A stretch of DNA of 64,000 nt from an uncultured Actinomycetes bacterium (GTDB lineage Bacteria; Actinomycetota; Actinomycetes; Nanopelagicales; Nanopelagicaceae). The translations under genes were made by a program, and so were the position numbers. The stretch is taken from contig CAINLV010000051.1 of assembly GCA_903850565.1 (NCBI GenBank), positions 1-64,000 on the forward strand. The letters are read 5' to 3'. Positions 1 to 38,876 of the stretch are shown piece after piece; within the stretch, counting starts at the first letter, position 1; every line of letters starts with the position of its first letter. The notes beneath the pieces were generated by a model. The model saw only the letters and a list, made by a program, of their open reading frames with translations. It searched no databases and was not told the DNA's origin.

Positions 1-1
1 A

Positions 2-256
2 CCCACACCCACACCCACACCCACGAGTACACGAAAGCCAACAGTGACACCAAAGCCAACAGTGACACCAAAGCCAACAGTGACACCAAAGCCAACAGTG
101 ACACCAAAGCCTTGGTTATCAAACAAGCTTTATGACAATGTGGAATTCTTTCCAAACTTTTGTAGTTTGTCGGCAAATTTTGATTCGGTACAGATCTTTA
201 TGCAAAACCTAATTCCTGGTCAGAGGATTATCGTGACTATTCGATCGGATAACTAA
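2..256 (+). CDS. C-terminal part of a Pro/Thr-rich repeat protein (partial)
   Basis: The frame is open to the window's left edge, so only the C-terminus is present. It reads as a Thr-Pro dipeptide run, then four copies of a KPTVTP hexapeptide, then about 47 residues of non-repetitive sequence ending IVTIRSDN. Such repeats usually form extended linkers in exported or wall-associated proteins. No LPXTG sorting signal or C-terminal membrane anchor is visible. The TAA stop overlaps the ATG of the next gene (TAATG), which suggests translational coupling with the membrane protein downstream. Function unknown; the N-terminal domains lie outside the window. Confidence 0.6.
   Translation, partial: PTPTPTPTSTRKPTVTPKPTVTPKPTVTPKPTVTPKPWLSNKLYDNVEFFPNFCSLSANFDSVQIFMQNLIPGQRIIVTIRSDN
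34..111 (+). repeat. 18-bp in-frame tandem repeat (four copies plus a partial)
   Basis: The unit aaagccaacagtgacacc occurs four times without mismatch from 34 to 105, followed by six bases of a fifth copy. It encodes KPTVTP. A separate acccac hexamer is repeated four times at 1-24. Identical copies of a unit divisible by three suggest recent slippage that would change linker length without breaking the frame. Confidence 0.9.
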
Positions 257-1950
257 TGGTTTACAAAATTCTCATCGTGGTTTATGTGTTACTCAATTTT
301 GCAACATTAGCTGCCGCTGCAGAAGAACCCCCGTTGCAACTTTATCAAACGATAACTCAAACCGAAGCGCAGGATCTCAACATTATGATTCCGGCTTCGA
401 CCACTTCTGGATTTAAGAGTTTAGAAGTTGAAGTAACTGGCATGGGGCAGAAGCCTCAACTCAGAAAAATTCTATTTTGCAAGGATTTCAAAGGCATTAT
501 CCATTGGGACAACTTATGTCCGGATTTGACTCGAGTTGCGGCACAGACCGTTCTAGAAACTGCAAAATCCAGAAGTGGGTTTCCCACCTATGACCCCCTC
601 TCAAACCCACATAGAACCACGGACACTGTGATTATTGCTTTTGCAGCACTTAATTTGATTACTGGGGCGAGGGCAATGACCACCAAAATATTAGGAAATG
701 AGGCAGTCCCAACCACGTCGGTGGAAAATGGGCCAGGTTATTTAGCCCAACTTTCACGAGGGGAAGTTTTAGTCGCCGGTTCCCAATTGGGTCGTGTAGA
801 CAAAGCAGAAATTTGGCAGAGTCCAACTACTCAAAAGATGGAAGGGTTTTTCACTAAAGTGGGTAAGAAAATATCTGGATTTTCGCCCTTGGGCACTCGA
901 ATTCTTTCCGACGGCAATTATCTTCGTTCGCTTTTTGGACCATTCTCATTATTGGTTTATCCCATTTCGATAGCAATTGGCTGTTATTCAACGAGAGTTT
1001 TTCATCAGCAGGCACTTCCACCCAGTCTAAATTTCATTCTCCTTATGATGACGATCGGAGTTCTCGATGCATTCGCTGGGATCCTTATATCAATTGCATT
1101 TACACTCTCGATACTTTTTGCGGGGCATCTAAATTCCATAAATTCGATCCTGACCGTAATGGGCGTATGTATGTTGGCTTTCACTCCTGTACTAGTGGCA
1201 GGAGCGTTCAGGCCCTTTCGACGTGAAGTTTGGGATTTCACCTCGCTTTGGGAGCGTATTACCGACTACTTACTCGCCAGCATTCTTACCGGTTGGGTTG
1301 TGGAACAGATAGTTTTGGGCTTGCCAGGCCTGTCTGGTCTCCAACTTCCGTTGACTGTGCATGCCCCTGAAATTGCATTTTGGGCAACAGGCTTGGTGAT
1401 TTTGCGATTTGCAGCTGAAGATATCTCAATTCGACTATTTCCTCAGCGACTAATTAAATTGGAACCTGAATATCGTGCACGCACAATCATGCAACAGTTT
1501 CTTGCAACAGTTTTCAAAGTGGCTATATTCGCCGTAATCGCAGGAAAGTTTGTTGGTTTCTCGGTGGAACTAGTAATCGGAGTTGGACTTTTTGCTCTGC
1601 CTTTGTTGATGGGGATTTTCGCCGATAAATTTCCAAAGTCAGCTGGCGTTCAAAAATGGATGCCTACAGGAATCATTGAGATGCTTGTAATGACACTGAC
1701 CGGATATATATTGGCGATACTGGTTCAACAACGTTATCCAAGCGCACGCACATATGTGCTTTTGAGTTTCGTATTGTTGAGCGTGCCAGGATTAATCTTG
1801 AAGATTTTGGCACTGTTTGGAAAAGAAGGAGCAAAAGACTGGAAAGTGACTAAGGTCGGAACGACACTGTATCGAGTATTAGGTATCGTGGTCTTAGGGG
1901 TACTGATTTACATTATTCTAAGTGGAATTCTGGTCTCTAATAATGTTTGA
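256..1950 (+). CDS. polytopic membrane protein with a signal peptide, function unknown
   Basis: A 564-residue protein. Residues 2-22 look like a cleavable signal sequence (hydrophobic core, then AAAAEE). Residues about 23-225 form a probably extracytoplasmic region with three cysteines. From about residue 229 to the end there are roughly nine or ten hydrophobic segments. I recognise no family. The start overlaps the stop of the repeat protein (TAATG) and the end overlaps the start of the WhiB-like gene by 8 nt, so the three are probably co-translated. A membrane component of a secretion or surface complex is possible but is only an inference from topology and neighbours. Confidence 0.7.
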   Translation: MVYKILIVVYVLLNFATLAAAAEEPPLQLYQTITQTEAQDLNIMIPASTTSGFKSLEVEVTGMGQKPQLRKILFCKDFKGIIHWDNLCPDLTRVAAQTVLETAKSRSGFPTYDPLSNPHRTTDTVIIAFAALNLITGARAMTTKILGNEAVPTTSVENGPGYLAQLSRGEVLVAGSQLGRVDKAEIWQSPTTQKMEGFFTKVGKKISGFSPLGTRILSDGNYLRSLFGPFSLLVYPISIAIGCYSTRVFHQQALPPSLNFILLMMTIGVLDAFAGILISIAFTLSILFAGHLNSINSILTVMGVCMLAFTPVLVAGAFRPFRREVWDFTSLWERITDYLLASILTGWVVEQIVLGLPGLSGLQLPLTVHAPEIAFWATGLVILRFAAEDISIRLFPQRLIKLEPEYRARTIMQQFLATVFKVAIFAVIAGKFVGFSVELVIGVGLFALPLLMGIFADKFPKSAGVQKWMPTGIIEMLVMTLTGYILAILVQQRYPSARTYVLLSFVLLSVPGLILKILALFGKEGAKDWKVTKVGTTLYRVLGIVVLGVLIYIILSGILVSNNV

Positions 1951-2269
1951 ATCTGGAGTTTCTCTACTTGAGCAAAGCCAAACAAATGTTGAACTGTCAG
2001 AGCTTCGAGCCATACTTCCTATTGCCGACCATTGGGATTGGCAATTCGCAGGTGAATGCGCGAATATGCCGAGCGGTCTCTTTTTTCACCCGGAGGCTGA
2101 ACGAGGCGAGCGACGTCGGAACCGCGAAATTTTCGCAAAAGCCATTTGTGCTGATTGCTCAGTCGTAGATAAGTGTCGCTCATTTGCCTTGGTTGCAAAA
2201 GAACCATACGGGATCTGGGGAGGACTCTCAGAAGATGAGCGAAAAGAAATTCTCAAGTCAAAAGAATGA
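1943..2269 (+). CDS. WhiB-family iron-sulfur transcriptional regulator
   Basis: A 108-residue protein with the WhiB cysteine pattern C39, C69, C72 and C78 (C-Xn-CXXC-X5-C), which holds a 4Fe-4S cluster, followed by the GIWGG turn at 90-94. WhiB proteins usually bind the primary sigma factor and adjust transcription. I chose the ATG at 1943 over the in-frame GTG at 1922 because it gives normal length and an 8-nt overlap with the membrane protein gene. There is no AT-hook after GIWGG, unlike the WhiB7 protein at 38.5 kb. Its place inside a membrane/surface operon suggests a dedicated regulator, which is an inference. Confidence 0.88.
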   Translation: MFESGVSLLEQSQTNVELSELRAILPIADHWDWQFAGECANMPSGLFFHPEAERGERRRNREIFAKAICADCSVVDKCRSFALVAKEPYGIWGGLSEDERKEILKSKE

Positions 2270-2374
2270 AGAAGTGGGAACCAAGTACAAGTACTAATCG
2301 AGTCTTACGTTCGACCCTCACTCGGGGCACTATTGTCACTTGCCGAATCCCTAACTTCTTAGAATGCTTACCTA

Positions 2375-3421
2375 ATGACAATTCGATTCCGCAGATCTTT
2401 GAAGATTGCACCTGGTCTTCGCGTCAATTTCAACAAGAATTCAACGAGTCTTTCTCTCGGTCCTCGGGGAGCGCATTACACAGTGAGCAGTTCAGGTAGA
2501 CAAACCATCTCGGCAGGAATTCCCGGTACCGGACTTTATGCTTACCAATCAATCAACCCGCAAAGCGCTAAACGCAATAGTTCCGTTCCAAAACCCGGAG
2601 CCCAAGAACAACAAACGGTCGGGCAATCTTCCCCAAAACCATCGCTATTTTCAAGTAGTGCCGAGAAGGCTTTTTATGGATTCCTAATGGATATTTACGA
2701 TCCGGATCACAAATATTCCCCACATGAAATAGTGGAAAAGGCGAAAGCTCTCAGAGAGCAATATGACTCGTTAATGTATCCGCTCAATTTACTTAGCTTC
2801 GTACATATTCTTTCGGCTGATGAATACCAGGACAAATTGATAGATGCTGGCGAGAAACTTTGGGCAGCTCGAGAATCTGCTTTCGGCGATCCTTTGGTTA
2901 GGAAATACTTTGTTGGAATATTCCCAGTTGTTACTATATGTGAAGGTATTTCCACCAGAGGAATATTTGATCTACAACAATTGGGCTTCATCTGGGTCGA
3001 AGTACTCCAAGATAAAGAAAAATATAATGAAGCACTGGCTGTCTTGCACGAAATGGAACCGACTCAACTCGTTGCGATTTCCATGGCGGATGTCGAGTTA
3101 AGCATGAAAGATTATTCAGGAGCTCTAGATACAACTTCAAACATCACCAATGAAGATGATGTAACTCTGATCTTGCTCGTTCTTCGCGGTATTGCTTTTC
3201 GCGAGCAAGAAATGTTTGACGCTTCTTTGGAGTGCTTGAAGCAAGCGTTAGCCAAAAAGAGCCGATCAAAAGCGGCGCTTCATAGGGCGCATTTCGAAAG
3301 GTCGATTACTTATCAAAAGATGCATAAGTATGCTTTAGCTAAAAAGGATCTCGAATTGATTCTTGTAGATGATCCAACCAACCCCGAAGTGATGGATCGC
3401 TTACGAAACCTGGACAATTAG
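2375..3421 (+). CDS. DUF4236 domain and TPR-like repeat protein
   Basis: A 348-residue protein. Residues 1-55 match the DUF4236 pattern (RFRRSLKIAPGLRVN, GPRGAHYTVSSSGRQTISAGIPGTGLY), a small glycine-rich N-terminal domain of unknown function. A Ser/Pro/Gln-rich linker spans about 60-100. The remainder is helical, with TPR-like repeats near the C-terminus (about 215-340). No signal peptide or membrane segment is evident. It follows the WhiB-like gene by 105 nt on the same strand and may share its operon. The role is unknown; DUF4236 with TPRs suggests a scaffold. Confidence 0.8.
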   Translation: MTIRFRRSLKIAPGLRVNFNKNSTSLSLGPRGAHYTVSSSGRQTISAGIPGTGLYAYQSINPQSAKRNSSVPKPGAQEQQTVGQSSPKPSLFSSSAEKAFYGFLMDIYDPDHKYSPHEIVEKAKALREQYDSLMYPLNLLSFVHILSADEYQDKLIDAGEKLWAARESAFGDPLVRKYFVGIFPVVTICEGISTRGIFDLQQLGFIWVEVLQDKEKYNEALAVLHEMEPTQLVAISMADVELSMKDYSGALDTTSNITNEDDVTLILLVLRGIAFREQEMFDASLECLKQALAKKSRSKAALHRAHFERSITYQKMHKYALAKKDLELILVDDPTNPEVMDRLRNLDN

Positions 3422-38507: not shown

Positions 38508-38876
38508 ATGACCGTTCTCTTCAGCGAACTGCTGGTACCAGGATGGGCCCAAGGCCCGGATGCAAAGATCGGGCTGTCTGCTGTGACCGCACCGTCGGAT
38601 ACATCAGATTCACGAAATGGCACGGGGCTTAATTTGCCTTGCCATTCCGTAGACCCGGAAACATTTTTCGCCGAAACTCCAGCCATGATCGCCTTTGCGA
38701 AGTCGCTCTGCAGTGAGTGCCCAGTTCGTCTTCAATGTTTAGAGGGCGCTATCTCTCGCCAAGAACCTTGTGGCGTATGGGGTGGGGAACTCTTCGATGA
38801 TGGAGTACCGGTATTGGCAAAGCGAATGCCAGGCCGACCACGCCTGCAACGAAATGATGTTGAACTAGCTGGTTAG
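38508..38876 (+). CDS. whiB7: WhiB7 antibiotic-response transcription factor
   Basis: A 122-residue WhiB protein. Cysteines C45, C68, C71 and C77 bind a 4Fe-4S cluster, GVWGG is at 89-93, and an AT-hook PGRPR lies at 108-112. The AT-hook after the GVWGG turn distinguishes WhiB7, which binds the primary sigma factor and an AT-rich element upstream of target promoters. It induces intrinsic resistance to ribosome-targeting antibiotics. ATG 38508 is 7 nt after GGAGGT, so the in-frame ATG at 38493 is unlikely. The position after uvrD2 matches Mycobacterium. Efflux genes in this window could be targets, but no site was identified. Confidence 0.92.
   Translation: MTVLFSELLVPGWAQGPDAKIGLSAVTAPSDTSDSRNGTGLNLPCHSVDPETFFAETPAMIAFAKSLCSECPVRLQCLEGAISRQEPCGVWGGELFDDGVPVLAKRMPGRPRLQRNDVELAG

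Follow-up and report, generated by a model that had tools for sequence, protein, structure and literature searches.

A two-gene locus at a contig end

The subject of this study is a gene pair at the left end of a 64,000-nucleotide stretch of DNA (the window) from an uncultured bacterium of the family Nanopelagicaceae (assembly GCA_903850565.1, contig CAINLV010000051.1). All features described here lie on the forward strand. The first gene (positions 2–256) encodes an 84-residue C-terminal piece of a surface protein that ends in a conserved tail, and the second (positions 256–1950) encodes a polytopic membrane protein of 564 residues with an N-terminal signal-like segment, which we call MEM. 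We propose that the two genes form a display module, in which the tail of a secreted adhesin completes a half-domain of MEM and so tethers the adhesin without a sortase. We regard this reading as probable; the pairing of tail and MEM, and their shared ancestry, are well supported.

The window opens at base 1 of contig C51, in a genome of 2.03 Mb and 115 contigs. Gene 1 is therefore truncated, and its 5′ part lies beyond the contig end. A Pro/Thr stalk of TPTP and TVTPKP repeats is positioned right at this end, with a 6-bp repeat at 1–24 and an 18-bp repeat at 29–111. The tail (170–253), ending in FMQNLIPGQRIIVTIRSDN, is proposed to be the first part, comprising two strands, of a split β-sandwich domain. 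It matches the tail model with E 2.6e-10, the window row being itself part of that model. The stop codon TAA of gene 1 (254–256) shares one A with the start codon of MEM, and the TAATG junction (254–258) reported in the original prediction is present. The sequence to the left of the window, which that prediction had called for, is cut off by the contig end, and a DNA search of the window's own assembly for the 5′ part gave a 25-nt repeat inside contig C41 as its sole match. This repeat sits in another gene with a TPTPTP spacer (G000:C41:47416-50440, L002), whose product appears by eye to be secreted and peptidase-like.

Homologues of MEM were found in 55 of the 296 family genomes, which represent 10 of 17 genera. 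They come mostly from metagenome-assembled genomes (MAGs), the chromosome-level genomes being IMCC26077, an acI-C1 freshwater strain according to PMC5301498, and LanE43. An alignment of 31 sequences, which leaves out fragments and divergent members from the 55 genomes, has a mean column identity of 46%. Against Pfam these 31 proteins gave weak, scattered matches only (best E 0.00029, to TauE, in one member), against NCBIfam weak matches only (best E 0.0074), and against PDB sequences none. By these comparisons MEM is an undescribed membrane-protein family, covered by no Pfam, NCBIfam or PDB-sequence family. Relatives were not found in the viral contigs (searched with degenerate patterns) or the plasmids searched, and an origin from a mobile element was rejected on this ground.

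MEM has a hydrophobic N-terminus followed by many hydrophobic segments. A model built from 31 rows (mean predicted local distance difference test score, pLDDT, 72) has an α-helical membrane part with more than seven long helices. Fold searches with the membrane part gave no clear match. The top-scoring fold, that of ThiT-type S-components (Z 7.1, root-mean-square deviation (rmsd) 5.2, 136 aligned), was not used, because its score falls within the range of unrelated helical models, and on kinship with G protein-coupled receptors (GPCRs), translocons or transporters these model-based searches give no verdict either way. The external half-domain spans approximately residues 22–90 (319–525) and contains Cys75 and Cys88, the only invariant Cys pair in MEM (n=31); it is proposed to supply the remaining strands of the split β-sandwich. 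When modelled without the tail, this segment is poorly ordered (block pLDDT 36–67 over residues 31–90). The first membrane helix after it is predicted at residues 118–145 (607–690). With this helix taken as the first membrane span, the external domain is about 95 residues long instead of the 200 residues first proposed. R319, R322, R323, E333, R334, D337, R384, E388, K461, Y539 and R540 are invariant, and so many invariant charged residues suggest a role for MEM beyond anchoring, which may lie in transport, signalling or enzymatic activity.

Pairing of the tail with the membrane protein

In 29 of the 31 aligned loci, the gene that immediately precedes MEM in the same orientation ends in a shared tail of about 25 residues (consensus GLKPGQKIKVTVK). 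These comprise the 27 loci of the tail alignment, L055 at a contig edge, and L067, where the frame is absent from the open reading frame (ORF) calls. The earlier view that a repeat-bearing surface protein is tied to a signal-peptide-bearing polytopic membrane protein thus extends to the relatives of the window. At each of the 28 loci whose upstream tail could be aligned (the 27 loci and L014), the junction ranges from an 8-nt overlap to a 2-nt gap: 1 nt of overlap in 7, 4 nt in 17, 8 nt in 3, and the gap in 1, counting from the first start codon of each ORF and from the ATG in L044–L046. This junction is more than chance. Since stop and start overlap, MEM may be translated after the adhesin, which would provide matched amounts of the two proteins.

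A profile of the 27 tails, searched against the 296 genomes, gave 37 matches at E<1e-5. Of these, 32 are followed by a MEM gene at a distance of up to about 45 nt, 4 are second copies in the same proteins, and 1 is a tail gene separated from its MEM (L050, discussed below). MEM is present in 30 of the 30 genomes with such matches. Matches beside MEM are expected, because the profile was built from such loci; the informative part is that no strong matches occur elsewhere. The tail and MEM are not a many-target sorting system. Second tail copies, about 140–210 nt before the terminal one, occur in L012, L056, L057 and G229:C144.

The short conserved C-terminal signal and its dedicated membrane protein could also indicate that MEM is an enzyme and the tail a sorting signal, cleaved or linked to a lipid or wall precursor in the manner of exosortase or rhombosortase systems. 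The invariant charged and polar residues in the membrane part would suit such a function. We nevertheless consider it quite unlikely, since each MEM has a single tail protein rather than many targets, and since the fused homologues described below retain the surface and membrane parts in a single chain. No His or Ser is invariant across the 31 aligned MEMs, and the sole invariant Cys pair is external. In addition, a 19-residue hydropathy window above 1.6 was found in only 1 of 28 tails (L044, 1.84), leaving 27 of 28 without a membrane helix by this measure. An LPxTG-type motif is absent from the conserved part of all 28 tails; one LP.[TS] string, in L062, lies outside it.

The proteins that carry the tail are adhesin-like. 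Fourteen partners were scanned for families, and one (L058) gave none. The adhesin-type domains recognised in complete or long partners are repeats of the TIG, fn3 and SWM types; a glycine-rich domain together with Listeria-Bacteroides repeats; BspA-type leucine-rich repeats with DUF4082; concanavalin-like and glycine-rich domains; and PF11999 ice-binding heads. The constancy of tail and MEM, set against the variation in head and repeats, fits an exchange of heads. Both adhesin and MEM have signal-like N-termini where the start is present. Partner open frames reach about 3,600 residues. Together with the adjacent, overlapping genes and the many membrane helices of MEM, this size might mean that MEM exports a giant adhesin, as a channel or as a dedicated secretion factor, with the tail as export signal. 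Such a role is very improbable, as the six complete partners inspected possess N-terminal signal-like segments of their own, and the fused homologues make it unlikely that one part exports the other.

The six nearest MEM relatives (L041–L046) each have a partner with a PF11999 head. A tree built from 40 MEM regions places the window inside a seven-row clade with those six (100/100), beside L041 (97/92). Because the window MEM nests among relatives with PF11999 partners, gene 1 is probably the end of an ice-binding adhesin. Additional PF11999 proteins with LPxT-type ends adjoin the module at L041:7074-8675 (G143) and L043:11525-14088 (G238), so that in these two loci two display routes for ice-binding heads would stand side by side.

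Fused homologues and the candidate split domain

Of 394 genomes sampled from the class as a whole, 19 gave MEM matches, and four other families account for 8 of these 19. Among the 8, G632 carries the module in split form, its ORF of 3,313 residues ending in the tail. In others, and in three paralogous proteins of the Nanopelagicaceae, a single longer chain has the MEM membrane region as its C-terminal part. Several fused proteins show surface repeats and a stalk, for example one of 2377 residues with fn3 repeats and one of 969 residues with TIG. Nine fused rows in the MEM tree fall on one side of a single branch (100/100); the tree is rooted by midpoint only, and either the fused or the split form may be ancestral. 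A juxtamembrane domain of about 108 residues is similar in 7 of the 11 fused proteins examined.

This domain resembles the tail and the MEM external segment taken together. A profile of 27 pairs, each concatenated from a tail and a MEM external segment that we cut after the signal peptide, was compared with a profile of the 7 fused domains and matched over 86 columns (Prob 95.9, E 6.2e-9, score 51.1), with a gap of 2–3 positions at the joint. Separately, the tail matched columns 16–40 of the fused domain and the external segment columns 60–101. A permuted tail with the real segment reached 51.1 in 0 of 300 trials (maximum 36.5), swapping the halves lowered the score to 34.2, and a permuted external segment alone scored as high in 0 of 300. 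As a harder control, we used 58 GLxPG-like hairpins, picked by motif from ORFs longer than 400 residues in the fetched loci, some of which are not surface proteins. Alone, these hairpins reached the score of the tail in 0 of 100 draws; joined to the MEM segment, they did less poorly, as given below. On these two results the tail match is graded as specific yet not overwhelming, most of the sequence signal coming from the external segment.

The two halves are collinear with the fused domain. When the 7 fused domains were freely aligned with the mature N-termini of 11 MEMs and with 12 tails, the tails and N-termini came to lie on neighbouring parts of the domain. In the reverse search, the fused-domain profile matched MEM external segments within positions 39–101 and tails within positions 12–42, with E-values that are nearly all weak (best MEM 0.00044; window tail 0.93).

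The fused domain of L071, modelled from 30 natural rows, is confidently predicted as an 8-strand sandwich (block pLDDT 92–98 over residues 11–110), followed by a helix and then the first membrane helix. By the free alignment, its strands at residues 25–31 and 38–44 would correspond to the tail and those from residue 48 on to MEM. The best structural neighbours of the model are β-sandwiches. They include, at Z-scores just above those of unrelated models, RbmA (Z 9.1, rmsd 2.9, 99 aligned) and an extender repeat from a large adhesion protein (6xi3; Z 9.1, rmsd 3.3, 93 aligned); Foldseek gave no match to the domain at E<0.001. The L071 model shows the fold of the joined domain, as distinct from a complex of the split parts.

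We propose the following mechanism. The upstream gene would encode a secreted adhesin consisting of a signal peptide, an exchangeable head with repeats, a stalk rich in Pro/Thr or Ala/Lys, and the C-terminal tail. The overlapping downstream gene would encode the polytopic MEM with its short external segment. The tail and this segment would be two parts of one Ig/FnIII-like β-sandwich, which is a single domain in the fused homologues. After secretion, the two tail strands would insert into the incomplete MEM domain and hold the adhesin at the membrane, each adhesin being served by its own dedicated MEM.

Several observations weigh against this mechanism. Two of the 31 MEMs lack an adjacent tail: L063 has none, and in L050 the tail lies 8 kb upstream. 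In L050 (G269:C12) the tail gene and MEM are on one contig with an unrelated gene before MEM, which would be either a natural case of action in trans or a rearrangement. No tail match at E<1e-5 was obtained in 25 of the 55 MEM genomes, whose MEMs include contig-edge fragments and divergent members. PF11999 was not found in the window's own assembly by a search that matches 28 of the 296 family genomes. Among the fused proteins, 4 of 11 (L211 and L213–L215) have no recognised domain at the junction, and the best match of the tail profile coincides with the domain junction in no more than 4 of the 11, with bit scores near zero. A permuted tail alone exceeded the real score in 1 of 300 trials, through a 5-column match (131.7) that is an artefact. 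GLxPG-like hairpins joined to the MEM segment reached 51.1 in 5 of 100 draws (mean 44.4). The charge of the tail anticorrelates with that of the external segment (r -0.85, n=27), but other MEM regions share this relation and phylogenetic contrasts reduce it to r -0.31 (p 0.11); charge complementarity was therefore not kept as evidence. Finally, the invariant polar residues of MEM are more than a bare anchor needs.

The result with joined hairpins bears on the possibility that the tail and the external segment are independent domains, their likeness to the fused domain arising from generic β hairpins. GLxPG hairpins do occur in FnIII-like repeats. This explanation is improbable, given that the tail alone scores above all 100 control draws and that adjacent genes match adjoining domain parts, in the right order, at the place where the fused homologues are joined. 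In an extension of the split-domain mechanism, MEM would also be a receptor. Load on the adhesin from ice, particles or cells, or loss of the adhesin, might extract the tail strands and switch the membrane part. MEM would then be a bacterial, gene-level counterpart of the adhesion GPCRs, with heads, ice-binding ones included, exchanged freely between lineages. We consider this extension unlikely.

Neighbouring genes and known systems

The stop codon of MEM overlaps the start of a WhiB-family gene by 8 nt (ATGTTTGA, 1943–1950), as originally predicted; among the loci examined, this overlap occurs in the window genome only. The WhiB gene (1943–2269; Whib 70.2 bits, cut-off 23.6) begins at ATG 1943, with GTG 1922 as an alternative start, and its product has four Cys, as the Whib domain requires. 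It is followed, after a spacer of 105 nt (2270–2374), by a gene for a DUF4236 protein (2375–3421; 73.7 bits, cut-off 27) that also matches TPR_2 (30 bits, cut-off 27). The predicted position of DUF4236 downstream of WhiB was borne out; the two genes do not overlap.

The original prediction combined all these genes into one WhiB-controlled, redox- or signal-regulated four-gene surface system, and the 8-nt overlap would be in its favour. The tie between genes 1 and 2 recurs in relatives and the tie to WhiB does not: neither WhiB nor DUF4236 was found in the 45 fetched loci of MEM relatives, searched by phmmer on called ORFs and by tblastn, so that in relatives the genes are separate. The four-gene order sought does not recur beside the 30 other aligned MEMs, for which the available downstream DNA is at least 2 kb in 28 and 873 and 1,462 nt in the remaining two. 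Nor did phmmer find WhiB in any of 18 fetched neighbourhoods of DUF4236 homologues. Similar WhiB proteins are widespread, being present somewhere in 223 of the 296 family genomes, and a scan for WhiB promoters gave matches at chance level. WhiB as a conserved module member was rejected for lack of recurrence in either set of neighbourhoods, and the four-gene system retains next to no probability. Co-transcription of WhiB and MEM in the window genome alone is possible. This genome has five WhiB-family matches including the window gene, and another of the five lies in the window at 38640–38786.

DUF4236 proteins occur in 51 of the 296 genomes, also in other surroundings. DUF4236 and MEM are found together in 19 genomes, against about 9.5 expected if independent, a comparison uncorrected for genome size and completeness. 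In one of the 18 DUF4236 neighbourhoods (L156:418-6532, G072:C19), a divergent MEM homologue comes after a pair of DUF4236-TPR genes. With 45 MEM loci devoid of it and only this divergent case, DUF4236 was rejected as a conserved adjacent gene. The conserved unit consists of the first two genes; WhiB and DUF4236 are merely local neighbours.

Other divergent MEM homologues, at L075:6709-10876, L072:2211-5756 and in L074, adjoin a gene for a SipW-like signal peptidase. Their other flank has a gene that combines a DnaJ domain with collagen repeats, assigned by Pfam in L072 and L075 and by likeness only in L074, and in L075 a small exported protein is encoded upstream. This arrangement may be a second surface system using the same membrane family. 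The two-gene module is also present in MAG records titled Bifidobacterium breve (L084, L087, L096), which are probably mislabelled.

No description of the MEM/tail system was found in the literature searched. In the library searched, no paper mentioned Nanopelagicales along with a giant protein, a surface protein or ice binding; acI, freshwater actinobacteria and adhesin occur together in one paper. If the split-domain mechanism is true, it would be a sortase-free way for Gram-positive bacteria to keep giant adhesins on the cell, and a natural split domain shared by two overlapping genes. The module is present in the acI lineage of freshwater actinobacteria, where partner lists drawn from the gene pairs would be a direct catalogue of what the cells may bind, ice included. 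The tail/MEM pair could also become a natural tool for protein ligation or display.

Among known display systems, sortase/LPXTG, PEP-CTERM/exosortase and GlyGly-CTERM/rhombosortase are many-to-one enzymatic systems in which a membrane helix follows the motif. As in the present module, exported proteins bear a conserved signal at the C-terminus and have a partner in the membrane. They differ in that the pairing here is one-to-one, from adjacent genes, with 27 of 28 tails devoid of a helix by hydropathy. The 28 tails do not fit the pattern of an LPXTG substrate, which ends in an LPxTG-like motif, a membrane helix and a basic end, and the exosortase-type pattern of many substrates for one enzyme was not found. 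Two-partner secretion (TpsA/TpsB) does not apply either, as MEM is α-helical in the model and not an outer-membrane β barrel.

The SpyTag/SpyCatcher pair derives from a split CnaB domain. As in that pair (PMC6539128), the tail and its acceptor would be parts of one split Ig-like domain, whereas the SpyTag split is a product of engineering and its parts join through an isopeptide bond. A SpyTag-like isopeptide through a tail lysine was rejected as a general rule, because in the window and in L042 the final 30 residues of the tail contain no lysine. Ice-tethering ice-binding proteins have a signal peptide and a membrane anchor, as described in PMC9957290. The six nearest relatives resemble DUF3494/PF11999 ice-binding adhesins, and MpIBP, in placing an ice-binding head on an extended stalk. 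The anchor, in contrast, would be a second protein that completes a split domain, where a helix in the adhesin's own chain would otherwise serve.

In the GAIN domain, one chain is self-cleaved and its last strand stays with the membrane part. The GAIN proteins, adhesion GPCRs and polycystin-1 (PMC11458180), hold a large adhesive ectodomain on a polytopic protein via a split β-sandwich, as the present module would. In our case, however, the split falls between two genes, with the first strands on the adhesin. No relation of the MEM membrane part to GAIN receptors in sequence or fold was found, the fold searches being without a clear match, and the MEM model, with more than seven long helices in its membrane part, may differ from the seven-helix adhesion GPCRs.

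In the donor-strand complementation of chaperone-usher pili, an incomplete Ig-like domain is completed by a strand from another protein. The same would hold here, where completion by another protein is proposed to give a strong non-covalent link. The differences are that an adhesin would donate two strands from its C-terminus, with a polytopic membrane protein as the acceptor, that the system is actinobacterial, and that the domain split here is still intact in fused homologues. Strand complementation and the split β-sandwich are known principles, and their present use appears to be an undescribed one.

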